This document shows, one piece after another, positions 29,067 through 63,114 of a stretch of 64,000 nucleotides of DNA (positions within the stretch are counted from its first letter, which is position 1; each line of letters starts with the position of its first letter). Under the pieces are notes generated by a model that had not been told where the DNA came from, did not search any database, and saw only the letters and a list, made by a program, of their open reading frames with translations. Both the position numbers and the translations under genes were made by a program. The stretch comes from a virus, in the IMG/VR virus record IMGVR_UViG_3300021185_003040, positions 1-64,000 of that record; one strand, given 5' to 3'.

Positions 29067-29579
29067 ATGGCATATAATAAAAAATATCCTAAATTAGAAA
29101 GGGTTTCCCCTCATTCTCCTTACTCTAATAGATTTGGAATTAAGTTATCGAATCTTGCAAGACAGCAGAAGAGACTATTAATAGAAAATCCTATTTTAGG
29201 CGAGAGGTGTGAAAGTGATCAGTTCGTTCATATCATATTCAATATATGTCAACATAGATATACTTCCTCTAAAAATAAGTATTATTATGATTGGTCTACT
29301 GATTCGTTTGTGAAGATGGAAGATCTTAAAGAAAACTATAATACGATAGATTGGGTCTGTGCACTATCTGGTAAACCTATCAGATCTAAGACTGATAACT
29401 TTAGCTTGGAAAACTTTGTACATCCAGAGTATCATGATGCATTACTGGCTCCTATGGTGGATGCTAGAATACTTAAGTCATCAATAGAGTTTCGTAAGCA
29501 CATAAAAAAACTCCTATTGAATCAACAACAGGAGTTTCTAAATTTAGCTCGTAAAAATTCTAAAAAGAATTTAGATTAA
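29067..29579 (+). CDS. Hypothetical protein on the plus strand (170 aa)
   Basis: One of two plus-strand genes, divergent from gp44 across a 59-base gap and convergent with the 476-residue gene, overlapping it by 9 bases. The protein has a basic N-terminus, CQHRYTSSKNKYYYDWSTDSF, and WVCALSGKPIRSK, which resembles half of a Cys-type metal site without a clear partner. No family recognised. Orientation suggests separate regulation or a later insertion. Confidence 0.7.
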   Translation: MAYNKKYPKLERVSPHSPYSNRFGIKLSNLARQQKRLLIENPILGERCESDQFVHIIFNICQHRYTSSKNKYYYDWSTDSFVKMEDLKENYNTIDWVCALSGKPIRSKTDNFSLENFVHPEYHDALLAPMVDARILKSSIEFRKHIKKLLLNQQQEFLNLARKNSKKNLD

Positions 29580-31001
29580 CTTAGAGAAACGATCTTTAAC
29601 TGAAATAGACTCCTGTATTAAAGATTCCATTTCCATTTTTCTAAGATCAGATTCAAATATTAAACCTAATTTAGTATTGTTTAATTGCCATGATTCTTTT
29701 GCAAGAATTTTAGCTTTAAGTTCTTTAGCCTTTTTGATTTTAGCTTCATCTCCACTTTCTTCTGCTTTCGCAATAACAGCATCAACTCTTTTAGTCATAC
29801 CTTCTTTTGAATTATCCGTTTTATCGACTTCTTCAGTTTCTTCTTCAGTTTCTTCTTCCTTTTCAGATTCTTCATCGTCATTAGATGTTCCAAACGCATC
29901 GAAATCATCTTCTTTTTCTGGAGTTTCTTCTGGAGTCTCCGTTGGATTTTCTTCTTCAGTTTCTTCAGGCGTTGTTTCTTTCGCTTTATTCTTCTCTTGC
30001 TCTGCCTTTACTTTTTCTAATTCAGCCTTAACCTTTTCATCGTTTGCAGCTGCATCATCTAGTTTTTTTGCATTCTTCTCCTGCTCAGCCTTGATTTTGT
30101 CCATTCTCTCCTTTTGAGCCTGTTTAGATTTTGTAATTCTTTCTTTTAGATCTTTCTTAGTTTCAGGACTCATCTTATCTCCCATTGCATCTAATTTATA
30201 TGTTGCAATTTCTTGAGCAGTGGAATCTTTAATATCTGCTATTAGGGTTTTTACTTTACCAGATCCAAATCCGCTTACTTCAGCATATTTAGCTTCAGTC
30301 GATGCTTCAAAATCAGAAGTGGCCTGTTTAATTCCGTCTCTTTTCTTTGTCATTGCAGATATTTGATTATCTAATTTGACTTTCATTTTTGCTAAAGCAT
30401 CTTTTTTAGCCTTAGCCGAAGCAGCTTCCTTATCCTTTTTAACTTTAGCCTTAACTTTAGCCTTTGCATCCTTTGTAGGAGCATCAGCTTCTTCAACAGA
30501 TTCAGTAGTACTTAATTCTGCCTTTTTAGTTTCTAATGAAGAAACAGCTACTTCCATTTTAACAGTTTGCATTTTCAGCTGCTTAAGTTTAGTGTAATCT
30601 TTTTCAGCGCTCTTCATGACCTTCTTATTTTTAGAAGTATCTTTAATAGCCTTTGCACCTAAACCAACCGTACCGATAATTGCCGTTAATCCTAAAACTG
30701 CTCCCATGATAATAGGATCTTGCATAAGAACAGCTCCCATTGGATTTTGTTCATTTAATACCTGATCTTCTGACTCTGTAAGTTGATCGGAAAGAGTTTT
30801 TAATGAATTGATAATATCATCACAGTCTTGCATCATCTTAGAATAACCTTCTTCTCCTGTTGTTTCTGGAGATGCTACTACAGTAACTGCGTCTGATTCT
30901 ATTGAAGTTGATGATTTAGCTACAGGTATATTATCTTCGGTTGATTCATCTATTGAATTAGCCTTTTTTGTATGATTATACCATTGTTCGAATGTTTTCA
31001 T
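29571..31001 (-). CDS. Highly charged coiled-coil head protein with capsid-targeting-like N-terminus
   Basis: The 476-residue protein begins MKTFEQWYNHTKKANSIDE, which resembles T4 internal-protein targeting sequences and offers an I-D-E protease site. A membrane-like stretch (PIIMGAVLGLTAIIGTVGLGA, about residues 94-114) precedes a very long Lys/Glu/Ala coiled coil (about 120-350), an acidic region (350-400) and a C-terminal helix. It lies immediately downstream of the capsid gene, with its own late-type box. It may be an internal head or core protein; no T4 homologue is recognised. Confidence 0.65.
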   Translation of the reverse strand: MKTFEQWYNHTKKANSIDESTEDNIPVAKSSTSIESDAVTVVASPETTGEEGYSKMMQDCDDIINSLKTLSDQLTESEDQVLNEQNPMGAVLMQDPIIMGAVLGLTAIIGTVGLGAKAIKDTSKNKKVMKSAEKDYTKLKQLKMQTVKMEVAVSSLETKKAELSTTESVEEADAPTKDAKAKVKAKVKKDKEAASAKAKKDALAKMKVKLDNQISAMTKKRDGIKQATSDFEASTEAKYAEVSGFGSGKVKTLIADIKDSTAQEIATYKLDAMGDKMSPETKKDLKERITKSKQAQKERMDKIKAEQEKNAKKLDDAAANDEKVKAELEKVKAEQEKNKAKETTPEETEEENPTETPEETPEKEDDFDAFGTSNDDEESEKEEETEEETEEVDKTDNSKEGMTKRVDAVIAKAEESGDEAKIKKAKELKAKILAKESWQLNNTKLGLIFESDLRKMEMESLIQESISVKDRFSKLI

Positions 31002-31032
31002 CTTTTATATTGATTTGTTTATAAACTTATAA

Positions 31033-31043
31033 TCTATATATCC
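31033..31043 (-). promoter_or_regulatory. Late-promoter-like GGATATATAGA box
   Basis: Minus strand CGGATATATAGATTAT, 32 bases before the start at 31001 and identical in its core to the box before gp18. Confidence 0.65.
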
Positions 31044-31062
31044 GTTTAAGTTTCAGCGAAAC

Positions 31063-31093
31063 AAAAAAAGGTCCTCTAAAATAGAGGACCTTT
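31063..31093 (-). terminator. Terminator after major capsid gene
   Basis: A 12-bp perfect stem (AAAGGTCCTCTA/TAGAGGACCTTT) with a short loop and a T-run on the minus strand, 29 bases after the gp23 stop. Strong rho-independent type terminator. Confidence 0.85.
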
Positions 31094-31121
31094 AATATTA
31101 AAATCTAAAAGTTAGTTCTAA

Positions 31122-32549
31122 TTAAAGAGCTAATTTAGATACATTGTATGTAACATATTGAGTTTCTGGGTGGAAACCTGCTTCAACTAATGCGAATCTA
31201 GATTTAACAGCAACTTTAGGAGCCATAGTTCCTTCAGCGATTGTTTGTACTGATTCAGCCATTAAGTAAGGCATGAATACTAATCCAGGACCGTTACCAT
31301 CACCTTTTCTACCAACTACTACTTCATAAGTATTGTCAGCAGCACCTTCCCATGCTTGTCTTGGGTCAGTGTATACATTTACACCAGCTACAGAACCTAC
31401 TGGGTAGATTGCACCTGCTGCTTGTGATAATGTGTTAGCCATTGGGTTAGCAACGAAACCAGCAACTGATTGTAAAGCTGTAGCCACTTTAGGACCTACA
31501 ACACAGAAGTTACCTGCACCTCTTCTACCTCTGTTTGCGATAAAGTTCGCAGCAGCAAGGATTGAAGTTAAGATTCTTCTATGGTTAGAAGCGATAGTCT
31601 CACCACCTAATGTAGCATCAGATAAGTCTAAGTCTAAGTTAGCACCTGAAGCTGTAACGTTAGCTTTACCTAAAGAATTAAGTTTAGCTAAGATTAAGTT
31701 GTTGATTGACTGAGTTAATTCGTTAGTTAATACTGACTCAACTTGAGCAACAGCATCTACACCGAATTGTTTAAGATCTTGTACTTGTTCTCTAGTAACT
31801 GCAGCAGCAACTTGGAAAGTTTCAGCAGCAACACTTTTTGAGAATAAAGAAAGACCCATAACTTTGTCAGGAGTTTGTTCACCAACACCTCTTGAGAATG
31901 CATTACCATCCTTGTCAGCAGCAGCGAATCCTTTAATATGATCTTCTAAAGCTTTCACTAATTCGATCTTTAAAGTAGAAATACCATCAGCGTCGTCAGC
32001 TGAGAAACAATCTGCAACTGCACCAGCATCAGCTTTCGCTTCACCAGCTACAGTGATTTTGTAAATTTCCATACCGTCTAATCTAGAAGCACCTTGAGCA
32101 ATTGCAAAAGTATCTCCTTCAGCAGTAGCACCAACAACTACGTTAGTACCTGATACTTTTACATAAGTTGGAGCAGTTGATCCGATTAATTTACCACCTT
32201 CGTAAACGAAGTCTAAGTAAGATAAAAGACCCATTGGTCCAGCCATTGGTACAACTGGTACTAAGTCTAAACCGATAGTTTGTGCAGCAACTTGCATTGC
32301 TAATGGTAATAATGTAGGAGCTTTATCACCTGAACCGTCTGCAGTTGCAGAAGGTAAAGATACATCACCCATACCGTAGATGTTACCAGCAGTCCCTAAA
32401 GACATGATGTGTGCATCTTCGTAAAGTTTGTGGTTATGACAGTATTCTGACATCCACGCTAGTTTTTCTGCTTCGTTGATACCTGTAGCTGATTCGATGA
32501 TCGGAGCCCAAGTTTCTCTAACTTCTGCAGAGTTAATTAAATTTGCCAT
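31122..32549 (-). CDS. 23: Major capsid protein gp23
   Basis: The 475-residue protein carries the T4-type capsid pattern: LINSAEVRETWAPIIESATG at the start, an N-terminal region ending near GNIYGMGDVSLPSATADGSG, PVVPMAGPMGLLSYLDFVYE, and the C-terminal GFVANPMANTLSQAAG...VNVYTDP and PYLMAESVQTIAEGTMAPK. It forms the HK97-fold shell; the first 50-60 residues are expected to be trimmed by the gp21 protease. T4 gp23 is 521 residues. It has a 155-base leader with a late-type box and is closed by a strong terminator. Confidence 0.96.
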   Translation of the reverse strand: MANLINSAEVRETWAPIIESATGINEAEKLAWMSEYCHNHKLYEDAHIMSLGTAGNIYGMGDVSLPSATADGSGDKAPTLLPLAMQVAAQTIGLDLVPVVPMAGPMGLLSYLDFVYEGGKLIGSTAPTYVKVSGTNVVVGATAEGDTFAIAQGASRLDGMEIYKITVAGEAKADAGAVADCFSADDADGISTLKIELVKALEDHIKGFAAADKDGNAFSRGVGEQTPDKVMGLSLFSKSVAAETFQVAAAVTREQVQDLKQFGVDAVAQVESVLTNELTQSINNLILAKLNSLGKANVTASGANLDLDLSDATLGGETIASNHRRILTSILAAANFIANRGRRGAGNFCVVGPKVATALQSVAGFVANPMANTLSQAAGAIYPVGSVAGVNVYTDPRQAWEGAADNTYEVVVGRKGDGNGPGLVFMPYLMAESVQTIAEGTMAPKVAVKSRFALVEAGFHPETQYVTYNVSKLAL

Positions 32550-32704: not shown

Positions 32705-34753
32705 CTACTTGTTAAATCTCTTGTTAATAGACTTCTTAACATCAGTTAAATCGTATAAAGGTTTCTTATCTTCAATAACAGGAGCAGCTTCATTTACTGT
32801 CTCTACTTTTTCCATAACTACAGCAACATCTCTAAGATCTCTAGTTTGCCAGAAGTTTCTTACTTGGTAAGCAGTTTCTAGTTTATGGTATTTAGATTGA
32901 GCTAAAAGAGCTGTTTTCTTGTTATCTGATAATTTAGACCATGTTTCTTTATATTCTTCTGGCATCATTTCAATAACATTAGGTTCGTTAGTTTTAACGC
33001 TATTTAATAATGAAGAGTTCCATAATGTAAGAATTTGTCCTTCAGTTAAGAATCCTTTTCCTTCGATTGATTTTAATACTTTAGATTGATCTTCAGTATT
33101 TAATTCGTTGTATTCTGCTTTCTTAGCTTCAGAAATAAATCTAAAGAAATGAGGGTTAGTATTTTCTTTAACGGTTGCTTTTTCGATTAAAGCAGATAAT
33201 TTAGAACTAATTTCAGATTTGTAAGCATCTAGTGAATCTACTGCTTCTTCAACTTCTTCAGTTTCTTCAACTTCTTCAGTTTCTTCAACTTCTTCAGTAG
33301 CTTCAATTTCTTCTTCTACGAATTCTTCTGCATTTTCTTTATCTTCAGCATCAACGTCTTTAACTTTGAAAGTTTCACCGTCTACTGTAAATTCTGTTTC
33401 TCCGTCTGCGATTGCTTTAGCTCTTGCAGCACCGAATGCATTTCCTTCTTCAACTTCTTCAGTTTCTTCAACTTCTTCAGTTTCTTCAACTTCTTCAGCA
33501 GCCTCTTCTTCAGAAATTTCTTCGTCACCGGCATCGTCAACTGTATCTTCTAACTCGTCTTCTAACTCGTCAGATTTGTCTTCAACTTCTGCACCGTGAT
33601 CTAATTCATTATCTTCAGCATCAACAGTAGGTTCAGTAACATCTGTAGAATCGTCTTCATCTTCAATTTCTTCAACTTCTTTACCAGCTTCATCTTCTAG
33701 TAATAAGTTAGAATTAACTGTTTCTGCAACGTATTCTGCATATTCAGTAACTTTTTCTAAATTTTCTTTTAAGTATTCAATATACTTTAATAAGCCTTCA
33801 TGGGTTGTTGCACCTTCATTATAAGATTCTGCTAAGTAATTAGTATAGTCTTTAATTGATTCAACACCTTCAGCAACATGCTCAGTATATGCAACGCTAT
33901 TATCTAATTTCTCAGATATTTCGTTATTTGTAGTTATTGTATTATCTAAGTTTTCAGCAAGGTATGCAGAATACTCGATAGTCTTTTCTAATTTCTCAGC
34001 AAGATAGTTTGAATATTCTTTAACGCTTTCAACTTCAGACTTTACAGATTCATCACTATTTAAAGATTCCATTCCCTCTTTAATAGTTTTTATTTCGCTT
34101 GATAAATACTGTGAATATTTATTAAAATCATCAGTACTTACGAATTTTGATTCAGCCATTTTGTTTTCAGTTTTATTTTCGGTTGTTAAAAGTTCTTTTG
34201 TATTTCCAATTTCATAAATTTGAATGCTAGAATCGTTATCAAATCCGAAAGATTCGTTAACTCTTTTTAATTCAGCATTTTCAAAACCAGGATCTGCAAC
34301 TAAATCATAAGTGAATAATTGCTTAATTTTAACAGTCCCGTTAGATTCAACTGTACCAGCTGCTCTAGATGAAATTTGTAAAGGAACACCAGCATCAACC
34401 AAAGCTTTAGCCTGACGACCAGCTTCAGTATCAAGTAATCTGATTTTACCTTTTACTTGTTTTGTTTCGCTATCATAGGATAATTCTTCAATAACGTGAG
34501 ATACGTTTTTTAAAGATACATCAAATGTTTGTGGGTGATCTAATTCTCCTAAAAGTTTAGAAGAACCTATTTTAGATTGAAGAGCTTCAATTTGTGGAAC
34601 ATATTCTGACTCAGTATAGATTCTATTATTTCTATTCTTTTTGTCAATTTCTCCAAATATACCTTCAAGGACATAAGCCCCATCACCATCTTGTTTGAAT
34701 TCTAATTCACTAGAAGATCTTTCTAGGATTAATAGATTGTTTTTTGTATTCAT
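32705..34753 (-). CDS. 21: Prohead protease (gp21) fused to scaffold (gp22-like)
   Basis: Residues 1-190 match the gp21/herpesvirus-type prohead protease: VLEGIFGEIDKKNRNNRIY, GELDHPQTFD with catalytic His73, and LQISSRAAGTV with the Ser pair at 128-129. Residues 199-370 are repeated coiled-coil units with Y-[ST]-x-Y-[LV]-[AS]-E, and 370-560 are extremely acidic with E-E-V-E-E-T repeats; the C-terminal 130 residues are helical. In T4 the protease and scaffold are separate genes (21, 22). An in-frame ATG at 34159 (MAESKFVSTDD) after an A-rich stretch could yield the scaffold alone (484 residues), as in lambda C/Nu3. Confidence 0.85.
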   Translation of the reverse strand: MNTKNNLLILERSSSELEFKQDGDGAYVLEGIFGEIDKKNRNNRIYTESEYVPQIEALQSKIGSSKLLGELDHPQTFDVSLKNVSHVIEELSYDSETKQVKGKIRLLDTEAGRQAKALVDAGVPLQISSRAAGTVESNGTVKIKQLFTYDLVADPGFENAELKRVNESFGFDNDSSIQIYEIGNTKELLTTENKTENKMAESKFVSTDDFNKYSQYLSSEIKTIKEGMESLNSDESVKSEVESVKEYSNYLAEKLEKTIEYSAYLAENLDNTITTNNEISEKLDNSVAYTEHVAEGVESIKDYTNYLAESYNEGATTHEGLLKYIEYLKENLEKVTEYAEYVAETVNSNLLLEDEAGKEVEEIEDEDDSTDVTEPTVDAEDNELDHGAEVEDKSDELEDELEDTVDDAGDEEISEEEAAEEVEETEEVEETEEVEEGNAFGAARAKAIADGETEFTVDGETFKVKDVDAEDKENAEEFVEEEIEATEEVEETEEVEETEEVEEAVDSLDAYKSEISSKLSALIEKATVKENTNPHFFRFISEAKKAEYNELNTEDQSKVLKSIEGKGFLTEGQILTLWNSSLLNSVKTNEPNVIEMMPEEYKETWSKLSDNKKTALLAQSKYHKLETAYQVRNFWQTRDLRDVAVVMEKVETVNEAAPVIEDKKPLYDLTDVKKSINKRFNK
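33245..33298 (-). repeat. Three tandem 18-base repeats in scaffold coding region
   Basis: Three back-to-back copies of an 18-base unit (plus strand ttcttcaacttcttcagt) encode E-E-T-E-E-V on the minus strand. The near-identity at DNA level points to recent expansion or recombination. Confidence 0.85.
33446..33499 (-). repeat. Second array of the same 18-base repeat
   Basis: Another three copies of the 18-base unit, about 150 bases from the first array in the same gene, again encoding E-E-T-E-E-V. Recombination between arrays could delete or duplicate the intervening segment. Confidence 0.85.
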
Positions 34754-34811: not shown

Positions 34812-35180
34812 CTATATTTCTAAGTCTCCTAGTTCATCTTCTAGGCTTGAGCCTTCTTCTCCTTCTCCACCATCATCTCCACCGGCTTCTTCTTCTTCAG
34901 TTTCCTTTTCAGTTTCTTCAGTTTCAACCTCTAAAAAATACTTTAATAATGTCTGCATATCTTCTTCAGTAAATGCATTATTACCATATTCTTTATAGAA
35001 ATATTCTTTAAATTCCTTTTCAGTTTTACTAGTTTTAATAACGCCGATAATTTCAGCTGATTTAATCTTTTCACCTGAATCTAAAAGAATATCATCTACT
35101 ATTACATCTGAATCGTCTCCGACCTCTATTGCGTCTTCTGTTAAATTAGAAAAATTTTTAAATGTTTGTAAGTGTTTCAT
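34812..35180 (-). CDS. Acidic prohead core protein (gp67/68-like position)
   Basis: The 122-residue protein lies between portal and protease genes, where T4 has core genes 67 and 68. It starts MKHLQTFKNFSNLTEDA, a capsid-targeting-like segment with an L-T-E site, and ends in a highly acidic tail of Glu and Gly. It is probably an internal core protein cleaved by the protease. No direct sequence match to gp67 is claimed. Confidence 0.65.
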   Translation of the reverse strand: MKHLQTFKNFSNLTEDAIEVGDDSDVIVDDILLDSGEKIKSAEIIGVIKTSKTEKEFKEYFYKEYGNNAFTEEDMQTLLKYFLEVETEETEKETEEEEAGGDDGGEGEEGSSLEDELGDLEI

Positions 35181-35207: not shown

Positions 35208-36797
35208 TTACATTGCCATAGGATCAACGTCCGGTTCTTCTGCGTCAATATTAGCTTGTCTTTGTTTATATGCTAAATTAGCTGCTTTATCGTCCGGTGA
35301 TAATTTTAAATATCTGTCTACTAAGAATTCCATATCAAAGTAAGGCATTTCTTCCATGGTAACTGGATCTGTTTTCATTAGAGAATCTTGCATTGTAGAT
35401 ATAAAGTCTAATCGTTTCTCCATGATTTCCATTTGTTTTAATTCAGCAAACATATTCTCTTCATTAAATTGAATAGCTATTTGAGTTCTGAAACCTGCAT
35501 CATCTTTGAATTCAGGAAATTTAAGACACATCTGTAGCCATAGTGGTTTTACTAAAATTTCTTGGAAAGAAGAACGTAATCTTTTAATAAATTTAGAAAA
35601 CTTAATTTCATCTCTAATCATACCATCAGCTGCAAGGTTAAAGTCACCACCACCGTCTTCATACATAAATCTATTGAATGGTATTTTAGAAACCATTTTT
35701 AATTTATCATTAAAATATTTAAGTGCTTCTGTATCTGATAATTCGGGACCGTCTCCTCCTAAAGTTTCAATCTCTGGAGATTCTCCTTCTTTGGATGGTA
35801 ACCAATATTCTTTGTTAAATTGGAGCATTGGTTTTCCATTAGTTGCCAATGTAGCTGAATCCCAATCAAAATCTACAACTTCTTTATAATTACCCATTAA
35901 TTGAGCAAGAGATTGCTTAGCTCTTGTTTTAGATTTACCACCAACTGGAATAATAAACTTCATTCTATATGATGAGTTTGTAACCGCCCAGATAACTCTA
36001 GTATGTTCCATTATTCTCATCAGGTTAAATGATCTTATAAGTCTTTCTAAGTAACTTACTCTCGAGGCAGTGGTTATTGAAGAATAAGAAAGATAGATAA
36101 TCTGTGAATCATACAGGACTCTCTCCTTAACAGGATCGTCCTTAAATTGAACCCATACTTTTTTACCATCATCTTTATTATAACCTGGCATTAGTGTAAT
36201 AGGATCTATTTCTTTAAATCCTATAATCTGATCTTGCTCAGGGCTGTAAATAATTTCAAAAGAAAGATATCCGTCAATTAAGAATTTTCTAAAGAAGTAC
36301 CATGCCGATTGATCTGAATTAAATCCAAAATATTGATATAAATCTCTGTATGATTTATTTAAGTACTTTGTAACTTCTTCTGAAACATCCATTCCTATAA
36401 GTTCTGGATTTCCAATAAAGTTCTTATTGTCATATACTATAGATTCGTCACATAGAATATCTAATATATCTTCTATTTCATCATGTGTGGAAAATCTTCT
36501 TAATTCGTCTCTTTTACCTTCATAGCCTTGGTCAAAGAAAGGAATATTTTTTCTCATGTTGGTATCTGCCATCGATAATGCGGCAAATGCTCCATACATG
36601 TTATCGTCGTCTAGTCCCATTTGATTCATTTGGCCGTAACCAAATTCATCTTCTACAGGACCTATTGCCTGAGATTGTCTTAAGACTAAATCATCATAAT
36701 ACATTCCGAAAGACGAGAGTCTTTTTAATGTATCACTTAAAGTGAATGATCTTTTACCAGTACTTAATGGTCCGTTTCTTTCTATAAATCCTGCCAT
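35208..36797 (-). CDS. 20: Portal vertex protein gp20
   Basis: The 529-residue protein has portal signatures including DEIEDILDILCDESIVYD, a wing/stem segment with LIRSFNLMRIMEHTRVIWAV, and IPFNRFMYEDGGGDFNLA followed by RDEIKFSKFIKRLR. T4 gp20 is 524 residues. It forms the dodecameric ring at one capsid vertex through which DNA enters and to which the neck attaches. It is the first large gene of the head operon, with a late-type box 31 bases upstream. Confidence 0.94.
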   Translation of the reverse strand: MAGFIERNGPLSTGKRSFTLSDTLKRLSSFGMYYDDLVLRQSQAIGPVEDEFGYGQMNQMGLDDDNMYGAFAALSMADTNMRKNIPFFDQGYEGKRDELRRFSTHDEIEDILDILCDESIVYDNKNFIGNPELIGMDVSEEVTKYLNKSYRDLYQYFGFNSDQSAWYFFRKFLIDGYLSFEIIYSPEQDQIIGFKEIDPITLMPGYNKDDGKKVWVQFKDDPVKERVLYDSQIIYLSYSSITTASRVSYLERLIRSFNLMRIMEHTRVIWAVTNSSYRMKFIIPVGGKSKTRAKQSLAQLMGNYKEVVDFDWDSATLATNGKPMLQFNKEYWLPSKEGESPEIETLGGDGPELSDTEALKYFNDKLKMVSKIPFNRFMYEDGGGDFNLAADGMIRDEIKFSKFIKRLRSSFQEILVKPLWLQMCLKFPEFKDDAGFRTQIAIQFNEENMFAELKQMEIMEKRLDFISTMQDSLMKTDPVTMEEMPYFDMEFLVDRYLKLSPDDKAANLAYKQRQANIDAEEPDVDPMAM

Positions 36798-39989: not shown

Positions 39990-41327
39990 TTATAGGTATC
40001 TTGTCGCTGCTCTTTGCCAGTTTGGTAAACCAGACATTTTTAAACCAGCTGCTTTAACGAATGTTCTCATAGAAATATCGTTTGCGTTTTTCATGAATTC
40101 GTAGATTTCTTCCTTTTCTTTAAGTGGCATCTCAGTAGGTTCTAAATAAGGTAATAACCTTTCCATTCTTTCCATTAAAGTTGCATCATCCGGATTTACA
40201 TCTACTAAAATAGATCTAGATCTGATAGCTCCATCTGGATCTGCCTTTTCTTTTGCTAAATTAGAAATAAAGATTACTCTTCCTGCAAATTCAAATGAGT
40301 TAGGAACAATTCCATTTTCTTCTAGTGTGAATGCTTCTTCAGGACTCACGTCTTTAGGATCATATACTGCTTTAGTCTTTTTTAAATAAGAAATCTTTCT
40401 TATTTTCTTTGTATCTAAAGCCGCTTTCATTAGGTTTCTACCATTTTCATCTCTAAATACTGCGTCACAATCATCAAAGATTAATGTTTTATTTCTATAT
40501 TGATAGAATTTCTTATACATCATAATAACAGATGCTGCACCTGAAACCATAACATAATCTTCTTCGTCAACAAGACCTTCATCTTTCATTGCTCTTTCTA
40601 CATTATATGTTTTACCAGTACCCGCTCTACCCGAAATAAATAAAGAGTTAAATGCACCAGCAGCCACTCTTCTAGATATTTCATAAATATCTTCCATTGT
40701 TTCTTCAAGATATTTAACCTTATCATTAAGGGTCATATCATTTTGTGTTTCGGCGGCAGTAGGCTTTATTGCAACCTGCTGTCCTTTCTTAATATTCATG
40801 ATTGAAGAATAAGGAACTTCTAATTCGTCTGCTATTTTATTAACGGCCATTCCAGCTGCTAATTTAGCCTCGATCATTTTAATTTCTTCTTTAGAGAATG
40901 CTCTTTTAGTTCTTCTTTCTAATAACATTGACTCTTGTATAGATGCAACGTATTTTTTATCCATTAATCTAACAAATTCTCCAACTAATTTAACGATTGG
41001 GAATGTTTCAGATGAAATAGAAAAATCAGATTTAGCGTCTGCTGCATCTGAGAAATAGATTATAGAACCTACAATACCAGGGTTTTTTGCAGTAGCGGGA
41101 GTTACCATAAATGCCTCTGTACCTTTACTTGAGTAAAACATTACTCCAGAACCCATATCAGTTATCATTTCGAATGGAAACTTTTTAAAGTCCTTCTTTG
41201 TTTTCTTATTTACAAATCTTGCGATTATCGTAGCTGCTTTATTTAGAGAAGGATTTACAAGTTCTATTGAACCCGTTTTCATAGCTTCATTTAAATACTG
41301 ATCGTATTTTAAGATTTTATTATTCAT
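39990..41327 (-). CDS. AAA+ ATPase with capsid-targeting-like N-terminus and HTH
   Basis: The 445-residue protein starts NNKILKYDQYLNEAMKTG, resembling a T4 capsid-targeting sequence with an L-N-E protease site. An N-terminal domain (20-130) is followed by a helix-turn-helix-like segment (residues about 137-175; SKEEIKMIEAKLAAGMAVNK) and an AAA+ core with Walker A FISGRAGTGKTYN, Walker B TLIFDDCDAVF and an arginine pair IRSRSI. It follows gp46/gp47 and precedes gp15, under its own late-type box. It may be a remodelling ATPase packaged in or attached to the virion. No named family assigned. Confidence 0.75.
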   Translation of the reverse strand: MNNKILKYDQYLNEAMKTGSIELVNPSLNKAATIIARFVNKKTKKDFKKFPFEMITDMGSGVMFYSSKGTEAFMVTPATAKNPGIVGSIIYFSDAADAKSDFSISSETFPIVKLVGEFVRLMDKKYVASIQESMLLERRTKRAFSKEEIKMIEAKLAAGMAVNKIADELEVPYSSIMNIKKGQQVAIKPTAAETQNDMTLNDKVKYLEETMEDIYEISRRVAAGAFNSLFISGRAGTGKTYNVERAMKDEGLVDEEDYVMVSGAASVIMMYKKFYQYRNKTLIFDDCDAVFRDENGRNLMKAALDTKKIRKISYLKKTKAVYDPKDVSPEEAFTLEENGIVPNSFEFAGRVIFISNLAKEKADPDGAIRSRSILVDVNPDDATLMERMERLLPYLEPTEMPLKEKEEIYEFMKNANDISMRTFVKAAGLKMSGLPNWQRAATRYL

Positions 41328-48284: not shown

Positions 48285-49484
48285 TTAGAATAATGAAGAT
48301 GAATATATTAGATTTCTGTTTAGTCTCTGAAGACCTACTGAAGATAATACTCTATTGATAGGATCTATTACAGATTTTTCAAATTGTGTTTCATAATCTA
48401 CCTGTGGTGCAATTTCATAAGGATGGGCACCTGGTTGATATGCATACATTTCACATACATTATGTTTACAATGATATAATTTTAGCTTTTCGCCATTACC
48501 AATCATTTTATACTTGTTTTTATATTTTGGATTCTGATTCATTAAGAAGTTATAGAATCCTGCTGCCTTGACGTTCGGAGGACATTTTAAACCATATTGA
48601 AATTCTATCGTATCATCTACAATGTATTTTTCAATATTATTAGTTCTTTTATTGAAAGCTATTTCATCAACATTAGACATCTTAAACTCTTTCTTTGCCG
48701 TTTTCAAAAAAGAAACTAATCTACTTAACATCTCTGCAGTTGGCTTTTCAGATAAAATCAATTTAAGAGCTTCAGTCAAATGCTTTCTTGCTAATGTAGG
48801 AGTAGAAGATTGAATAGTATCGAATCCGATCGTCTTAATCTTCTTAAGGGAAGGGTATCTGTCGTCTACTTCAAGCTTATCTTCCCATGCAATGTCTTGT
48901 AAATATTTCTTTTTAGCTAACCATATTCCTGAATATGCAATTGTTTCTAAATCGAAATATAAAAAGTTGTCCGTATTCGTAACTTCGGCATACTTTGCCA
49001 TACATTTCGTGATATAGTCTTTGATTCTGAACGTATATAATTCCATAATAAACTTATCAATTGGTAGTTTATTATCTCCTAGCCATTCAATAGATTCATA
49101 CATTTCTTCAAACTGAACGTAACATGAATCAGTATCTATATAGACCACGGAAGGTCTTACTAATTTATTCTTAATAGAAATATTAAAGTGCTCGTGGACT
49201 ACAGTATCTTTAGGCCAAAACTCTTGAAAATATTTATTAAGAATCTTTTCAGAATATAGAATTGCATTCTGTCCTTGTAATGTAATAGATTCTGCAATGT
49301 CTATATTAAAAAAGTGAAACCACTTATTACCAAATGCACCATAAATCGAGTTAAGAGTTACTTTAACGGCCTGTTCGTATGCAGTAAACTTGGCGGACAT
49401 CGTCTGATAGTGATCCGCCAAGATTTGCATTTCATCCCTTGTAAGGTCGTCTTCGGGCTTGTTAATTAGTGTGTTTATATCCAT
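48285..49484 (-). CDS. 43: DNA polymerase B family, C-terminal part (palm/thumb)
   Basis: The 399-residue protein begins in the fingers domain and has polymerase motif B KVTLNSIYGAFGN (residues 41-53), motif C VVYIDTDSCYVQF with Asp117 and Asp119, then a KKKYLQDIAW palm segment and a thumb ending SSSLF. It supplies half of the active site; the exonuclease and motif A are on the separate protein at 53404-54801. The two lengths add to 864, close to T4 gp43 (898). The terminal SLF resembles the T4 polymerase clamp-binding tail. It needs its partner for activity. Confidence 0.92.
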   Translation of the reverse strand: MDINTLINKPEDDLTRDEMQILADHYQTMSAKFTAYEQAVKVTLNSIYGAFGNKWFHFFNIDIAESITLQGQNAILYSEKILNKYFQEFWPKDTVVHEHFNISIKNKLVRPSVVYIDTDSCYVQFEEMYESIEWLGDNKLPIDKFIMELYTFRIKDYITKCMAKYAEVTNTDNFLYFDLETIAYSGIWLAKKKYLQDIAWEDKLEVDDRYPSLKKIKTIGFDTIQSSTPTLARKHLTEALKLILSEKPTAEMLSRLVSFLKTAKKEFKMSNVDEIAFNKRTNNIEKYIVDDTIEFQYGLKCPPNVKAAGFYNFLMNQNPKYKNKYKMIGNGEKLKLYHCKHNVCEMYAYQPGAHPYEIAPQVDYETQFEKSVIDPINRVLSSVGLQRLNRNLIYSSSLF

Positions 49485-50389: not shown

Positions 50390-52240
50390 TTATCCATCAC
50401 ATGCTAAACAATCTTCCATTGCTCGCTGTGCGATGTCTCCTCTTAATACAGATTCTGTTCTCATGTAATAAAGAGTTTTTATTCCCTGCTTATAAGCTTC
50501 TAAATGAACTTGATTAATATATTTAGGTTCAGCCTGTGTAGGAAAAGCTAAATTTAATGAAACTGCTTGATCAATATATTGTTGTCTTACACCAGCTTGT
50601 TTAACCAATTCCATTTGATTAATTTCTTTAAAGGTTCTAAATACATCTTTAACAGAAATATAAAGATCCTTTTCATGATCTATTAATTTGTCATAAGCAA
50701 GTTGCTTAATCGGAGCATCATTGCTTCCTTCCTTTACCCAATATTCTTCTAATATATCAACGCCTTGAACTGAACCACCGTCTTCTAGTATTTTGTCCCA
50801 TACTGTTTTCTTATTTTGCTTAATCTTAGTTAACATATCTTCTAGCGCAGGGTTCTTTCTGATAAAAGTTCCTTTTGCAGTTTGTTCAGTAAATACATTT
50901 GCTGCCCATGGTTCAATACCCGGTGAAACATTTCCTGCTAATTTAGAATTAGAAACAGTAGGAGCAATTGCTCTTAAGTGGGTGTTTCTCATTCCAGTTC
51001 CTACACACCAAAGAGGTTCTCCAAATTCTGTAGCTAAATCTCTACTTGCTCTTTCACTTTCTACTTTGATTTGTGAAAATATCTTTCTAGTTTCAAATTG
51101 AGCTGTTAAAGAATCGAATGGAATATTTCTATCTTGTAAATAAGTATGCCATCCAAGAACTCCTAAACCTAGTGCTCTACCCTTTTCAGCAGATCTTACT
51201 GCATTTTCAAAGCCTCTCATATATTTCGCTCTATGAATAAACTCTTGAAGAACTCCATCTAAAAAGTAAGTTGCAGTATAAATTAAATCAGTATCTTTCC
51301 ATTCTTCATATCTTTTAAGATTCACAGAAGATAAACAGCATACAAATGAATGATTTTCATCAGTGTGTAGAGTAATCTCAGAACAGATGTTAGTCATATA
51401 AACCTTTAAACCATTTTGTTTATATGCATCGGGATTCATTCTATTAATATTACCCTTAAACATTATATAAGGTTCTCCCGTTGCTCTTCTTTTTCTAATC
51501 ACGGCAGCCCATCTTTTACGAGCTTCTTTATCTCCAGCCTCGATCTTTTGCATAAACCCATCAGATACTACAATACATTGATGTACGTTTAAACATTGTC
51601 TGTTTACATCACCCTTAGGTTCTCTAACCTCTAACCATTCCCAGAAATCATCATGTTCTATATCTATATTGACTGATGCTGCACCTCTTCTTACTGAACC
51701 CTGATTAGTTGCTAAAATAGTAGAATCGTAAATTTTTATAAATGGAACTACTCCGTCTGAAGTTCCGTTTCCTGTAATAGTTGCTCCTGCCGGTCTTATT
51801 TGATTTACTCCGATGCCAACACCACCTCCATGTTTAGCAAGTAACATTAATTCTAAATTCTTTGAACCTATGTCGTGAATTGAATCTGCTACATCTATAC
51901 CAAAACATGAAATTGGAAGACCTCTTTCTGAACCTGTGTTTGAAAAAACTGGAGTTGCAAGATTTAACCATCCTTTCCACATATAATCAAAGAATTTACT
52001 TGCTAATTCTGGCTTTCTTAATCTTTGTGCAACTGTCGTTGATACTCTCCAGTATGCATCTTTTGGAGTTTCTCCTTCTAGTAAATATCCTTTGGAAACG
52101 GTCTTTACATAAACTTCAGTATTAGCCCATACTGGGAAGTCTACTCCTAATTTCCATCCTTCAGATTCTCCGAAGTTTCTTTCTTTTCCCTTTTCATTGT
52201 ATTCGGGGTTTGGTGCGTCGTTGTAATTTCTTATCATCAT
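50390..52240 (-). CDS. nrdA: Ribonucleotide reductase class I large subunit NrdA (short form)
   Basis: The 616-residue protein has the catalytic set: LPISCFG (Cys112), TNICSEI with the Asn-Cys-Glu trio, VCCLSSVNL, and LYYMRTESVL with the Tyr pair, plus a C-terminal C-L-A-C pair for reduction. The N-terminal ATP-cone domain (about 90 residues in E. coli, 761 in total) is missing, so overall activity control by dATP should be absent. It partners NrdB, encoded directly upstream. Confidence 0.95.
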   Translation of the reverse strand: MMIRNYNDAPNPEYNEKGKERNFGESEGWKLGVDFPVWANTEVYVKTVSKGYLLEGETPKDAYWRVSTTVAQRLRKPELASKFFDYMWKGWLNLATPVFSNTGSERGLPISCFGIDVADSIHDIGSKNLELMLLAKHGGGVGIGVNQIRPAGATITGNGTSDGVVPFIKIYDSTILATNQGSVRRGAASVNIDIEHDDFWEWLEVREPKGDVNRQCLNVHQCIVVSDGFMQKIEAGDKEARKRWAAVIRKRRATGEPYIMFKGNINRMNPDAYKQNGLKVYMTNICSEITLHTDENHSFVCCLSSVNLKRYEEWKDTDLIYTATYFLDGVLQEFIHRAKYMRGFENAVRSAEKGRALGLGVLGWHTYLQDRNIPFDSLTAQFETRKIFSQIKVESERASRDLATEFGEPLWCVGTGMRNTHLRAIAPTVSNSKLAGNVSPGIEPWAANVFTEQTAKGTFIRKNPALEDMLTKIKQNKKTVWDKILEDGGSVQGVDILEEYWVKEGSNDAPIKQLAYDKLIDHEKDLYISVKDVFRTFKEINQMELVKQAGVRQQYIDQAVSLNLAFPTQAEPKYINQVHLEAYKQGIKTLYYMRTESVLRGDIAQRAMEDCLACDG

Positions 52241-52267: not shown

Positions 52268-53275
52268 TTATGAAAACAAATCGTCTTCATCCCAGTTTTC
52301 ATCTTCGCCTGCTTTAGAATAATCAGTAGGTCTTACTGCGAAGAAATCTGTATGTGTATGTCCACCTGTTAGGTGATAAAACCAATCTAATTCAGAAGCA
52401 CTTTCTTCGTTGTATTCAAAAATAGATTGATATCCTAGTTCTGCTAATTTCTCATTAGCTCTTTTCTTAATAAATTCTTTAAGATCTTCTTTCTTAAGAT
52501 TTTCTAAATCTCCCATCTCAAACATTTTATCAATAAATTTCATTTCCATTTCAACCATTAATCTAGCAGCTTCTTCAACCTGAGATTGAACTGAATCTCT
52601 AAGCTCAGTATATTCTTCACACATGTGGTTAAACAATTGACATCCCATTTTTGAATGAAGAGATTCATCTCTAACTGACCACTTCATTTGTTGTCCAATT
52701 CCCTTAAGTTTATTTCTCATTTGAAAGGAATAAAGAACAGCGAATGAAGAGTATAATGCAACTCCTTCTCCAAATGCACTAAATATAGCCAAAGATCTAG
52801 CAACATCTTTCCTGGCTGAAGGGTTTTTTAATAGATCTTCATGTGAATATTCTGCCTCTGTGTTCATTAAATAATCAAATCTTTCTGCAGTTGTCGGTTC
52901 ATGTAAGAATGCTTCAAAATCCTCAAGACCTAATGTTTCATTTAAATAAGAATAAGCGGTTGCATGAATAGTTTCTTGAGAACCAAACAACATTGCCATG
53001 TGTTTGATTTCCCATTTAGGAAACCAATTAGTAACCATTCCTGTCCAATAATCTGAAACTGCACATTCAGTTTGTGCAAACCCCAAAAGAATATTTCCAA
53101 CTAAATTCTTTTCAGAATCCGTAAGTGTTTCATTCCAATCCTTGACATCGCCTTGCATTGAAATTTCGGTATGTAACCAAAACGCTTGTGCTTGTTTTAA
53201 CCATCCTTCAGTATAATATACTGGATATTCAAATGGTTTGTATTCTATTCTTTCTTTAAATATTGATGGTTTCAT
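52268..53275 (-). CDS. nrdB: Ribonucleotide reductase class I small subunit NrdB
   Basis: The 335-residue ferritin-like protein has iron ligands in FAQTECAVSDYW, QETIHATAYSYL (with the radical Tyr at the position of E. coli Tyr122) and SVRDESLHSKMG. The C-terminus ends ENWDEDDLFS, a hydrophobic-acidic tail expected to dock into NrdA. It makes the tyrosyl radical for deoxynucleotide synthesis. A late-type box lies 81 bases upstream. Confidence 0.95.
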   Translation of the reverse strand: MKPSIFKERIEYKPFEYPVYYTEGWLKQAQAFWLHTEISMQGDVKDWNETLTDSEKNLVGNILLGFAQTECAVSDYWTGMVTNWFPKWEIKHMAMLFGSQETIHATAYSYLNETLGLEDFEAFLHEPTTAERFDYLMNTEAEYSHEDLLKNPSARKDVARSLAIFSAFGEGVALYSSFAVLYSFQMRNKLKGIGQQMKWSVRDESLHSKMGCQLFNHMCEEYTELRDSVQSQVEEAARLMVEMEMKFIDKMFEMGDLENLKKEDLKEFIKKRANEKLAELGYQSIFEYNEESASELDWFYHLTGGHTHTDFFAVRPTDYSKAGEDENWDEDDLFS

Positions 53276-53403: not shown

Positions 53404-54801
53404 TTATCTTAATCTTTTTTTAAGTCTGTCGGCTTTAGTGAAATATTCGTATGAGGTTTGTTTATAATCTTTACGCTGATCATATAAATCTCCTAGAATT
53501 TTCTTTAACATTGAAGTCTCTTGTTTATATACTACTCCGTTTTCACAAACGATTACTTCTTTATCTTTTCTTCGCTCAGCGACTTCATGCTTTGCTACCT
53601 TTTCAACAAAGGCGTCGGGTGAAATATTAAATTGTCTCATTATAGAAGGATATAGTGATGCGAAGTCAAATGCACTTACACCTGCATAATACCCTGTAAT
53701 GGGTTCTTTTACATAAGCACCTGCATATTGTGCATTCTTTTCACTGTCTTCCTTCTTTTCAGATCCAATTCGTTTACCTTCTTCTGATAGTTTTCGTGCA
53801 ATCAGGGATTCTGTAACTGCCACTGGTGATGCTGCTTTATATAGAGGCATCTTTGTAATGTTTGCCAAGGTTAAAAGAACTTCCATCGATTTCAACTTCT
53901 GATCTATATAATAAACCAGTACGGAATCGACTACATTGTAGTAAATGTATTTTACAAAATCATCTCTATATAAATCCTGTAGAGATCCTGTAAATTTAAT
54001 CTTGTTAACATTAAGAACTTGGCCTGAAACATAATCAAGTGCATTGGATTCTTTTACCTTTACACTTCTATCATATTTATCATATAATTGCATGTAATCT
54101 AAGATTCCAATATGTAAAGGTCTGCTATCATTTCTATCCAAAGACTGTGTCATAGAAACTTCAGCAATGTCTATTTGTAATCTTTTACATCTATTTACGA
54201 TATACTGCCAATCATAATTAATAAAGTTCCAGCCTGTCATCATTGGAAACTTAGGTAGGAACTTCATTAAGAACGTATAGACCATATCATATTCTGACTC
54301 GAATTTCTGATATTTGAATTCCCAATCCTGATCAAAGTCTTTAAAATACTTATTAGTATCGTCTTCTATTTTTTGAATGCTTTTAGAATCCATATCTTCC
54401 AATCCTAATACAATAGCCTTATGTTCTGGTGTAATTATGGAAAATGACAGGATTCTACTTTTAGCTTCTTCGGCTTTTGGAAAGCCATCTACGATTTCAG
54501 TTTCAATATCGACGAAGTATGTTTTAGGCATATTGTATGCAAAGATTTCTTCTTTATCCTTTGCGGGTAATGAATCTAAGAAATAAGTTAAAGAAAACTT
54601 ATTATATCTTCTTGCACTTCCTAGTTTGACTGATCTGCCATCCCAGTTTTTATGATCTAGACTTCTGCCTTTATCATTATCATTACATACATACCAGTTC
54701 TGATACTGTGAAATTGGATATTGTTTAAATGCTACTTTACCTTCGGTGTCGTAGTAAGAGATGATAACATCCCTGTCTCTCTGTTCAATATCTAATATCA
54801 T
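53404..54801 (-). CDS. 43: DNA polymerase B family, N-terminal part (exonuclease and motif A)
   Basis: The 465-residue protein has the proofreading exonuclease motifs TYFVDIETE (Asp98, Glu100), MTGWNFINYDWQY (Exo II) and YNVVDSVLVYY (Exo III), then polymerase motif A AFDFASLYPSIMRQF with Asp379, and ends in the first fingers helix at YDQRKDYKQ...KKRLR. The reading frame stops there; motifs B and C are on the protein at 48285-49484, about 3.9 kb away across nrdB, nrdA and the clamp gene. The product should assemble with that partner. Aeromonas T4-like phages also have a gene 43 split in the fingers. Confidence 0.93.
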   Translation of the reverse strand: MILDIEQRDRDVIISYYDTEGKVAFKQYPISQYQNWYVCNDNDKGRSLDHKNWDGRSVKLGSARRYNKFSLTYFLDSLPAKDKEEIFAYNMPKTYFVDIETEIVDGFPKAEEAKSRILSFSIITPEHKAIVLGLEDMDSKSIQKIEDDTNKYFKDFDQDWEFKYQKFESEYDMVYTFLMKFLPKFPMMTGWNFINYDWQYIVNRCKRLQIDIAEVSMTQSLDRNDSRPLHIGILDYMQLYDKYDRSVKVKESNALDYVSGQVLNVNKIKFTGSLQDLYRDDFVKYIYYNVVDSVLVYYIDQKLKSMEVLLTLANITKMPLYKAASPVAVTESLIARKLSEEGKRIGSEKKEDSEKNAQYAGAYVKEPITGYYAGVSAFDFASLYPSIMRQFNISPDAFVEKVAKHEVAERRKDKEVIVCENGVVYKQETSMLKKILGDLYDQRKDYKQTSYEYFTKADRLKKRLR

Positions 54802-57345: not shown

Positions 57346-57352
57346 CTTTGTT

Positions 57353-58360: not shown

Positions 58361-58389
58361 CTGCTTTTTTTCAAAAAAAGTGCAATGTT

Positions 58390-60022: not shown

Positions 60023-60254
60023 TTATTTTATTTTCTTGTAACTTAATTCTGAGCCACAGTTGGTGAATAATTATTTCAATGGATTTTTCATCATCCTGTT
60101 CAAGCGCAGTAATTATAGAAAATTGATCAACTAGTTTTCTAGCAGAATCTAGATGATCAAAGGTAACGCAAGAATCAATGACAGCTTCGATTTTCTCTAT
60201 CGCCTTAATTGACCATGTTTTATAATTTCCGGGTCTGAAGATAATGTTATCCAT
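60009..60254 (-). CDS. Small helical hypothetical protein (81 aa)
   Basis: An 81-residue helical protein (SIKAIEKIEAVIDSCVTFDH; DDEKSIEIIIHQLWLRIKL) overlapping the cytidylyltransferase start by 14 bases. Upstream bases contain AAGTATAATATAATG, a possible -10-like sequence. No family recognised. Confidence 0.6.
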   Translation of the reverse strand: MDNIIFRPGNYKTWSIKAIEKIEAVIDSCVTFDHLDSARKLVDQFSIITALEQDDEKSIEIIIHQLWLRIKLQENKINGSK

Positions 60255-60284
60255 ATTATATTATACTTAAAAAGACTAAATTGT

Positions 60285-60677: not shown

Positions 60678-60686
60678 ATCTTATTA

Positions 60687-60718
60687 ATAAAAAATGCTCT
60701 GTAGTTATACAGAGCATT
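60687..60718 (-). terminator. Terminator after the 682-residue gene
   Basis: Minus-strand 11-bp stem AATGCTCTGTA/TACAGAGCATT with a four-base loop followed by TTTTTTATT. A strong terminator, 26 bases after the stop at 60745 and before mgsA. Confidence 0.88.
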
Positions 60719-60744
60719 CTTAAATTGTTTAAATATTTTAAAGA

Positions 60745-62793
60745 TTACCAGCTAGCGGCCCATACAAATTCAAAGTTATGTTTCTTACAAAACTTTTCAA
60801 TCATATCTGAAATCTTAGCTTGGGCAGCTTCGTACTTAGCGTAATCTCTTCCATCTATAATATTATAAGCACTTTCACCATATTCATCAGGATGTCTTAA
60901 TTCTCTTGGCTCGTCAGTCTTATAATAAACTTTCTTTTCAGCTGTTCTAATATAAGGCATTCTTAATTCTATTCTTCTATGTGCTTTTCTTCCGCTTGCC
61001 TTTGCGATGTCATATTGCTTTTCGATTCTTGGCTTTAATCTAGTCCATTCGGCTAATATTTTATCATTAGCTTTAAAACCTGCTAAAATAGTTTTCATGT
61101 CAAATTCTACTCCGTTTACTCTTTTGTAATCTTTGAAAACTCCAACTACATCATCCATAAATTTATCAAAGCTAGAAATAGATTGATATGATCCATGGAC
61201 AATTCCCATACCCCATTCATCTTCTACCTTTCCAGTTGATACTTTTTTGGTTCCATTGAATAATTTTGCAAATGAATAATTAGGTCTACGAGTTGAGTTG
61301 TTAGAAGAAAACTTAAATACTTCATGTTTCCATGATTTTCCTCGAAGATCAATAGCTAAACACAAATTACCTCCATAATTCCATTCTGATCTATAAACTC
61401 TACATCTAAATTGAATTTTTGGAAATTCCTTTTTTAAACGCTCTGCCATTTGTAAACCATTACCGAAGTTAGATTCTCTTTTGTATGCTTCTTTACATTC
61501 TTTAGATTTTCTAGCAATAGCTAAAACCTTACTTATTGTATAGTATGTTTCTGAATCGAATATTTCATCATCTGTTTCTTTATCTAAAATAACATCTTCA
61601 TTAATAGATTTTAAATGAGTCAGTTTAGTGGATGTTGATTCTGCAAATGCTTCAATATCCCATTGGATTCTTTGCATTGGATCATCACCTCTAAAGTTTT
61701 TCTCAACCCAATCAATAAGACCTGGTTCGAATTGGGCGTTTTGTGCCATATCATAGGCATTCTTCCAACCGTCGTTTGATGCAACGTCTTCTAACCATTG
61801 GTCATATTTCCTTTGAGTCCATCTTACTTTCTTAACAGCTTTCTTATGAGGACCAGCTCCTAATGTTGACTTTACAGTATTGTAGTGTTCTGGACCTGCA
61901 AATACGCCTTCTGCCCATTCTTGATCTCTTTTATTACCGTCCCAATATTTAATTTCTTTTCTGAATCTTCTTAGTGAATAATTACCACCTTCAATTTGTT
62001 TACGCTTTGTTACTTCTCCTTGTCTGTAACCTATTTCAATCTTCTTTTCTTCGGCAGTTTTAGGATCCATTTCGAAATGTAAAGATTTTACTAAATCTCC
62101 AATACCATCAAATTTACCTTCAGTAACTACTGATTCATCTAAACCTAATGATTTATTAACTAGATCTTCAATAACAGTAGAATAATCGTCCTTCAAAGCC
62201 CATTTAATTGTTTGACCTTGACTTCTTGCTTTTTTGTTTATCCATTTAAGATGTGTTGCATCAGTAAGAAACTCGGAAGCTTCTTTTGCAATTCTCTTTG
62301 GATCCTTTTTCCATTCTTCAATAGTAGTGCCAAAGTTATTACCGTATGTAGAACCATTAGTTCTTTTAAGGTTATTGATTCCACCAATCTTAATGTATAT
62401 GTCATTATTAATAGGCATTGCTTCAAAGAAAACTACATCTCTTTCTTCTGGGTTGTTTTCACCAGATAATTGATCAATAGCATAAGTACTATGAACTCTC
62501 CAAGTAGGTTCGCCCTTTACATTGTATGCTGCTGAGTGCGTATCTCCACCAAATTCAGAAGCTTTTAACTTATATGCTTTAGCTTCATTGGTGGATCCGA
62601 AAGATTCAAATGATATAATGTTTTTCATTTCGCGTTGTTTCTTTTTATTTCTCTTCTTCTTATACTCTTCTTCGGCATCTCCCTTTCCGGCTGGAATATC
62701 CCCTGATCCAACTGATGTTTCAGTTGGTAAAGAGACTTCTCCCATTCCGGCCATATCGCCAAGTGATAAGTTTTCGTTTTCGTTTAATTCCAT
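60745..62793 (-). CDS. Large probable virion-internal protein with gp23-like N-terminal tag
   Basis: The 682-residue protein begins with a 55-residue arm containing GMGEVSLPTETSVGSGD, closely like the gp23 segment GMGDVSLPSATADGSGD, and a Lys/Arg-rich run (KKKRNKKKQR). An internal Met56 starts KNIISFESFGSTNEAK, another capsid-targeting-like motif, so translation might also start there (62628). The rest is alpha-beta with basic patches (RRFRKEIKYWDGNKRDQEW; YDIAKASGRKAHRRIELRM) of unknown fold. No catalytic motif is recognised. It is probably a processed, DNA-associated internal protein; this is inference. Confidence 0.65.
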   Translation of the reverse strand: MELNENENLSLGDMAGMGEVSLPTETSVGSGDIPAGKGDAEEEYKKKRNKKKQREMKNIISFESFGSTNEAKAYKLKASEFGGDTHSAAYNVKGEPTWRVHSTYAIDQLSGENNPEERDVVFFEAMPINNDIYIKIGGINNLKRTNGSTYGNNFGTTIEEWKKDPKRIAKEASEFLTDATHLKWINKKARSQGQTIKWALKDDYSTVIEDLVNKSLGLDESVVTEGKFDGIGDLVKSLHFEMDPKTAEEKKIEIGYRQGEVTKRKQIEGGNYSLRRFRKEIKYWDGNKRDQEWAEGVFAGPEHYNTVKSTLGAGPHKKAVKKVRWTQRKYDQWLEDVASNDGWKNAYDMAQNAQFEPGLIDWVEKNFRGDDPMQRIQWDIEAFAESTSTKLTHLKSINEDVILDKETDDEIFDSETYYTISKVLAIARKSKECKEAYKRESNFGNGLQMAERLKKEFPKIQFRCRVYRSEWNYGGNLCLAIDLRGKSWKHEVFKFSSNNSTRRPNYSFAKLFNGTKKVSTGKVEDEWGMGIVHGSYQSISSFDKFMDDVVGVFKDYKRVNGVEFDMKTILAGFKANDKILAEWTRLKPRIEKQYDIAKASGRKAHRRIELRMPYIRTAEKKVYYKTDEPRELRHPDEYGESAYNIIDGRDYAKYEAAQAKISDMIEKFCKKHNFEFVWAASW

Positions 62794-62796
62794 ATC

Positions 62797-63114
62797 TTAA
62801 TATTCAAATGGTGGAGTTCCATAATCACCTTGTTCGATGCCATACCATACTCCTGATACTTGTAAATACCACCATCCATATTTAGTGTCGTCTACTACTT
62901 TAAATTTCTTAGGTAATTTAACAGATTTTTTTGGAGCTCTAGCAATATACTTTAAAACTGGAACACCATCATCCCATGTTTTTTTAGTAGATCTTGCTTG
63001 AACTGATTGTCCATCTGAAAACGCATCAAATGCTTTTGCATCTTCTATTTCATCTGCTAATAAATCGATAGCTGATTCATTAATGTATTGTTCAAATAAT
63101 TTTACTTTTTTCAT
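62797..63114 (-). CDS. Small protein with capsid-targeting-like N-terminus (105 aa)
   Basis: The 105-residue protein begins KKVKLFEQYINESAIDLLADE, in which FEQYINES mimics the T4 internal-protein signal with an I-N-E cleavage site. The mature part is short and basic (RAPKKSVKLPKKFKVV) with an SH3-like strand pattern (YGWWYLQVSGVWYGIE). It lies directly before the 682-residue protein and may be packaged with it. No family recognised. Confidence 0.65.
   Translation of the reverse strand: MKKVKLFEQYINESAIDLLADEIEDAKAFDAFSDGQSVQARSTKKTWDDGVPVLKYIARAPKKSVKLPKKFKVVDDTKYGWWYLQVSGVWYGIEQGDYGTPPFEY

Follow-up and report, generated by a model that had tools for sequence, protein, structure and literature searches.

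The locus analyzed here raises the question of why proteins of very different kinds, an AAA+ ATPase among them, begin with short sequences that resemble the capsid-targeting sequence of T4 internal proteins. The original prediction took them for packaged proteins, some of which may be injected. The window is a stretch of 64 kb, the first part of a 123,787-base virus record that carries T4-type head genes. Judged by its sequence, it belongs to an uncultured marine T4-like phage, with a Gp23 capsid protein, a T4 portal and an S77 protease-scaffold fusion. The genes for the three head proteins stand in T4 order:

31122 to 32549, minus strand: major capsid protein Gp23, which has, close to its N-terminus, ESATGINE/A, a site that fits the consensus of those described below
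32705 to 34753, minus strand: fusion of the scaffold with the prohead protease (S77, T4 gp21-like), which is predicted to do the processing
35208 to 36797, minus strand: T4-type portal Gp20, which gives the context of the prohead gene block

The nearest relatives of the head proteins are found in huge phages and in the Prevotella Lak phages, and the start codons lack a Shine-Dalgarno sequence, which together suggests a host among the Bacteroidota. A search of a phage collection for closely similar DNA gave no match. For comparison we used G001, a 178.7-kb record nearly identical to this one, and five further related ones (G002 to G006), whose ATPases are about 57-60% identical to the one studied here. 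The gene starts are the output of a mechanical ORF caller. As judged from sequence, the DNA polymerase is apparently split into two ORFs (48285-49484 and 53404-54801), and two ribonucleotide reductase genes (50390-52240 and 52268-53275) lie between them.

We defined the T4-register motif as [FYW]xx[FYW][ILVM]xE at the start of the protein. In T4, mutagenesis has shown that residues 4 and 7 of the tag are needed for targeting and residues 8 and 10 for processing (PMC9026906). The tags described here have this 4-7-8-10 spacing (aromatic, aromatic, aliphatic, Glu) and the N-terminal position; the lead is often longer (MKxIKx), and 1-3 additional residues sometimes precede [LI]xE. The segment MNNKILKYDQYLNEA is a candidate head-targeting stretch of this kind. 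Throughout the 123.8-kb record the motif starts 6 of 125 proteins, the expectation being 0.97 by the interior rate and 0.23 by shuffling of the N-termini. In six related genomes, a count that omits the near-identical G001, it starts 35 proteins versus 3.3 expected. A regex of the same type applied to T4 as a control matched IPII, IPIII, gp61.1 (MKTFKEFIKE), gp61.4 and one other ORF, and therefore has power, yet is not perfectly specific. Relaxed forms also match clear non-members, and [LIVMF]xE is a short and common pattern. T4 gp61.1 (L142:167-331), annotated as a hypothetical protein, starts with the canonical tag MKTFKEFIKED. By sequence, at least ten proteins of the phage appear to carry a head-loading-type tag, including the ATPase and large multi-part proteins:

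62797 to 63114, minus strand: 105-aa tagged protein, MKKVKLFEQYINES, quoted in the original prediction as LFEQYINES
63116 to 64000, minus strand: C-terminal part of a 444-aa tagged protein, MKLYTNFDNFINEA; the gene extends to record position 64450
60745 to 62793, minus strand: 682-aa protein with a GMGEVSLP...GSGD segment and an internal tag FESFGSTNE/A (62584-62610)
39990 to 41327, minus strand: 445-aa tagged AAA+ ATPase, a T4 NrdC.10 homologue (phrog_1250)
34812 to 35180, minus strand: 122-aa acidic prohead-core protein with the tag FKNFSNLTE, in the T4 gp67/68 position
29571 to 31001, minus strand: 476-aa charged protein adjoining the capsid gene, with a diverged tag MKTFEQWYN...SIDE
16033 to 16263, minus strand: 76-aa protein with a weaker, tag-like start MKRVKTYEEIISE and a late-promoter-like octamer
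Outside the window (record coordinates): 64485-67703, 72116-74242, 79555-79923, 120533-121435, 121491-121973 and 122308-122847

All strings quoted in the original prediction are present in the ORFs to which it had assigned them, and conservation among orthologues grades these examples as strong, moderate or not supported. The tag is strongly conserved in the ATPase and in the acidic gp67-like protein, which sits between portal and protease and whose orthologues carry MKIYNTFESFIKEA and MKYLRLFEQFIKEA (FESFIKEA, FEQFIKEA). Conservation is moderate in 60745-62793, where SFESFGSTNEA comprises residues 61-71, directly after an internal Met56; a partial homologue in G002 (77169) has the counterpart MKHLKNFEQFINES internally. 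This protein has a second site, ESVVTE/G, at 62119-62136, and its C-terminal domain is a separate protein in G002. For 29571-31001 the aromatic part of the proposed tag stands at a moderate grade, with FEEF kept in its positional counterparts downstream of the capsid gene, while the IDE cleavage part does not, since [LI]xE is not conserved there. FFRFISEA in the scaffold (in 32705-34753) had also been counted as a member and has to be dropped as a conserved tag, the relative reading FFRIVSSTTQ. The whole-genome search for more members that had been suggested yielded 63116-64450, the weaker 16033-16263 and the six outside the window. The 63116-64450 protein, whose start lies beyond the window, has an internal site ESLKLNE/A before its main domain, which in G002 and G003 is the C-terminal domain of polyproteins. 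For the 62797-63114 protein, relatives were found within the same species only. A GMG[DE]VSLP..T..GSGD segment is common to the capsid protein 31122-32549 (residues ~59-75) and 60745-62793 (residues 16-32); in G002 and G003 it follows a DUF3008-type domain and precedes a tag, and is perhaps a shared capsid-contact peptide.

The ATPase was predicted to be a tagged AAA+ protein, and its assignment holds. Residues 130-442 match phrog_1250 (E 1e-39), residues ~203-445 are about 30% identical to T4 NrdC.10, and the region contains a P-loop GRAGTGKT and a DD motif FDDCD. Its N-terminal half has three parts:

41286 to 41306, minus strand: tag YDQYLNE, residues 8-14, with the protease cut predicted after E14
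40953 to 41258, minus strand: extra alpha/beta N-domain, residues 24-125, absent from T4 NrdC.10
40917 to 40934, minus strand: ESMLLE, residues 132-137, a second site at which the prohead protease is predicted to cut, on the linker that joins the N-domain to the HTH/AAA+ part

Across 17 ATPase sequences (relatives 96-57% identical to the one studied here) no column ahead of residue 28 is invariant except E14. All 17 have a recognisable tag, in some cases with extra residues as in FEEFNMLSEG and YGDFKNSLNEA, and all 17 have a linker site of the type E[SA]..[LIVMF]xE ahead of the HTH/AAA+ part. In the AlphaFold model, of which only the outline was used because the mean pLDDT is 70, both sites lie in stretches with pLDDT below 50 (residues 1-23 and 126-140) and an ordered N-domain lies between them. 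A Foldseek search with this model gave AAA+ proteins as top matches at low TM-scores, and a profile search against solved structures gave a kinesin P-loop match only. The homologue in the 642-kb huge phage LR756502 retains an N-terminal region.

Where residues agree among 39 tags, they share the codon in 51.5% of cases, versus 53.7% expected from codon usage. The selection therefore acts on the protein, and copying of the tag at the DNA level was rejected. The genes for the portal, the protease, the gp67-like protein, the tail and the baseplate are preceded, within 40 bases, by an octamer [GA]ATATATA, which shows a strong coding-strand bias (34 vs 4, 43 vs 3 and 36 vs 0). It is found upstream of 28 of 83 tagged genes versus 68 of 655 others (p = 1.3e-7) and precedes the ATPase gene in all six genomes. 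Its positions include those upstream of 34812-35180, 32705-34753 and 39990-41327. The octamer resembles a late promoter and is likely one of this phage group.

Virion proteomes are available for two other T4-like phages, one of which links the tag to packaging. The proteome of the cyanophage S-CREM2 has been published (PMC10665884), and among its non-structural ORFs 4 of 5 carriers of the strict motif are in virions versus 22 of 188 non-carriers (Fisher p = 0.0012). A wider motif, picked after the data had been seen, gives 6 of 10 versus 20 of 183 (Fisher p = 0.0005). All four non-lysin enzymes in these virions carry the motif: a SAM hydrolase (MKDFDSFLEE), an APH-like kinase (VKRFDAFLTEE), a cytidylyltransferase (MKNFSSFLTEA) and a protein labelled 'Cas9' (LRFASFMAEA). 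In the available part of their report the authors propose that such enzymes may be carried in the capsid, name no signal, and caution that virion preparations may hold abundant contaminants (PMC10665884). In S-SCSM1 (PMC9602691) NMNAT, the sole metabolic enzyme in virions, is tagged MKSFLQFLKEA. A whole-genome test in this phage, based on three carriers only, found 1 of 3 in virions (p = 0.43, not significant), and a DNA-pattern scan of its genome for the tag performed no better than the control.

Two of the large tagged proteins, of 1072 aa (64485-67703) and 708 aa (72116-74242), have five ES..[LIVM]xE sites each, the most in the record, and by sequence look like polyproteins. Their modules recur elsewhere as separate tagged proteins or within the scaffold, in other arrangements. 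A GTRSQ module follows INYVINE in 72116-74242, ALLLE in G002 and GFILE in G003, and both G002 and G004 have a protein of its own that opens with it (MATRSR). The module RRYTENHPA comes after GLRE in 64485-67703 and DVNE in G002, and after the N-terminal tags FQDFLNE in G003 and DEFLLE in G005. In 64485-67703 the MDAMDPKSK module comes after NLNE, and in G004 after a tag; in G002 it starts a protein and lies also inside the protease-scaffold. The scaffold part of 32705-34753 in turn has a NAFGAARAKAIADG module that is present in a G002 polyprotein. In 23 proteins, a set selected after the matches had been seen, 29 of 43 internal module starts lie at [LIVMF]xE, where random placement gave 12.1 +- 2.9 and never more than 20 (about 400 draws). 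The excess shrinks to 48 vs 28.4 expected, of 252 ends, when every non-collinear alignment is counted, in a test that mixes in tail fibres and misplaced starts. We hold it to be an even proposition that these are polyprotein cargo, that is, tagged multi-module proteins that would be loaded in the prohead and cut to effectors by the capsid-maturing protease, with site plus tag as the unit exchanged between cargo and scaffold.

Pfam annotates hardly any of the cargo modules. Among the proteins of the group that are tagged or tag-adjacent are a poly(A) polymerase/CCA-type enzyme (G002), ATP-grasp ligases (G001, G003), DUF5661, DUF5824 and a DUF3008 protein. The 623-aa protein 68796-70667 (record; L002:5796-7667) contains a CTP_transf/NMNAT-type domain and, at the C-terminus, a sequence resembling the tag, LLTFKQFLENNG, which relatives keep as MTFxQFLK; it also has a KxxG nucleotidyltransferase-like start, EKIQGAS. 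The neighboring 70678-72048 (record; L002:7678-9048) belongs to a tagged 456-aa family with the motifs AGHMSHPFD and TEKTDGQN; an RNA ligase identity is not claimed for it, the fold similarity being weak (best E 0.097). The G002 gene L089:8532-9686, a poly(A) polymerase/CCA-type nucleotidyltransferase (E 4e-34), starts MQLKTFTEFQMVNEA and is possibly a packaged tRNA-end enzyme. Early counter-defence or RNA/NAD repair would be our guess for the role of the cargo.

We propose, with a probability of about 0.83, that the motif is a T4-type capsid-targeting sequence on proteins that are loaded in the prohead, cut there and most likely delivered. The T4 spacing, the tag kept in fast-changing N-termini, the S77 protease, the octamer and the S-CREM2 virion mass spectrometry all speak for the capsid-targeting claim of the original prediction. 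Packaging of tagged proteins is well supported; that it occurs in this phage itself, that the tagged proteins are cut and injected, and what they do, we infer. The tagged proteins would be made late, the two aromatic residues would bind the prohead core, and the proteins would be enclosed as the shell forms. The S77 prohead protease would then cut after the Glu of [LIVM]xE, taking off the tag and severing the linkers of multi-part proteins. For the AAA+ ATPase the three expected products are the tag (1-14), the N-domain (15-137) and an ATPase resembling NrdC.10 (138-445). The proteins 64485-67703, 72116-74242 and 63116-64450 would be polyprotein cargo, with modules swapped at protease sites among phages and even with the scaffold. 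Once freed, the proteins would most likely reach the host cell together with the DNA and be active immediately, probably in countering defence or in resetting nucleotide and RNA metabolism. Thus, the findings suggest that these phages carry, and probably inject, large enzyme cargo.

T4 gp67, gp68 and gp22 are cut up and expelled from the prohead. The tagged proteins might likewise be prohead-core or assembly factors that enter by means of the tag, build or mature the prohead and are then cut up and expelled, not injected. The tagged 34812-35180 in the gp67 position fits this, as do the cargo module in the G002 scaffold and the scaffold module of this record in a G002 polyprotein, and cutting at all of the numerous sites of the large proteins would yield small fragments. 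We nevertheless consider it unlikely. AAA+, poly(A) polymerase/CCA-type, ATP-grasp and cytidylyltransferase domains are without a known assembly role, the cargo varies among related phages, the sites lie between modules and leave these whole, and tagged enzymes are present in finished S-CREM2 virions.

Less probable still is some other N-terminal signal, for instance one that places the protein at a membrane, or one for the start of translation or for turnover. Short amphipathic N-termini serve many purposes, and the start regions may be unusually constrained because the genes lack a Shine-Dalgarno sequence, but the freely varying codons speak against a nucleic-acid signal, the spacing is that of the T4 residues required for targeting and cutting, the gp67-like core gene is tagged and the S-CREM2 virion content correlates with the motif. 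A short degenerate motif could also emerge by chance when many N-termini are scanned, and the relaxed regex does match non-members such as the clamp loader. This explanation is refuted for the group by 35 proteins versus 3.3 expected and by conservation with free codons, which leaves it next to no probability overall; for single members such as the scaffold FFRFISEA it may apply.

If the T4 targeting signal, so far associated chiefly with small anti-restriction proteins and with Alt, also marks enzymes and polyproteins in marine T4-like phages, then reading N-termini would predict which uncharacterized phage proteins ride in the head. It would also explain NMNAT and SAM hydrolase in cyanophage virions, for which the available parts of the reports give no mechanism. 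Polyprotein cargo cut by the prohead protease would be a new delivery route, with many effectors from one gene.

The closest known system is the T4 capsid-targeting sequence of IPI-IPIII (Mullaney and Black 1996, reviewed in PMC9026906), with the same N-terminal spacing of aromatic, aliphatic and Glu residues, the same class of protease and head genes, and late expression expected. Searches against Pfam and PHROG gave no match to T4 IPs among the tagged proteins, so that only the tag is in common. The kind of signal is already known, since internal proteins of T-even phages have been detected by it (PMC12373910). For marine T4-like phages, a limited literature search found no description of such capsid-targeting tags. 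Virion enzymes of S-CREM2 (PMC10665884) and S-SCSM1 (PMC9602691) carry the same tag, and NMNAT-type cytidylyltransferases occur in both this group and the T4-like cyanophages; the available parts of these papers name no targeting signal and describe no polyprotein arrangement. In phiKZ and SPN3US several head proteins have N-terminal propeptides that are cut after Glu by a gp21-like protease, but most of these exceed 100 residues, and they differ in type from the T4 tag (PMC5694885). Polyvalent proteins are likewise large and multidomain, with shuffled domains, and predicted to be packaged and injected, and their processing has been proposed to occur via built-in peptidase domains (PMC5512222). 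In contrast, the modules described here are bounded by predicted prohead-protease sites and carry T4-type tags. Domains known from conflict systems are a further mark of polyvalent proteins, for which the sparsely annotated modules here offered little to compare. T4 NrdC.10, a conserved hypothetical ATPase, starts MKTVTINKGMYFGKEISG, without tag, N-domain or linker site, whereas the ATPase here has all three. While the reported T4 cargo consists of small proteins and Alt, here it would comprise an AAA+ ATPase along with large enzymes and polyproteins that have several sites. What differs from the known systems is thus the enzyme cargo including the AAA+ protein, the second conserved site and the arrangement in polyproteins and modules.
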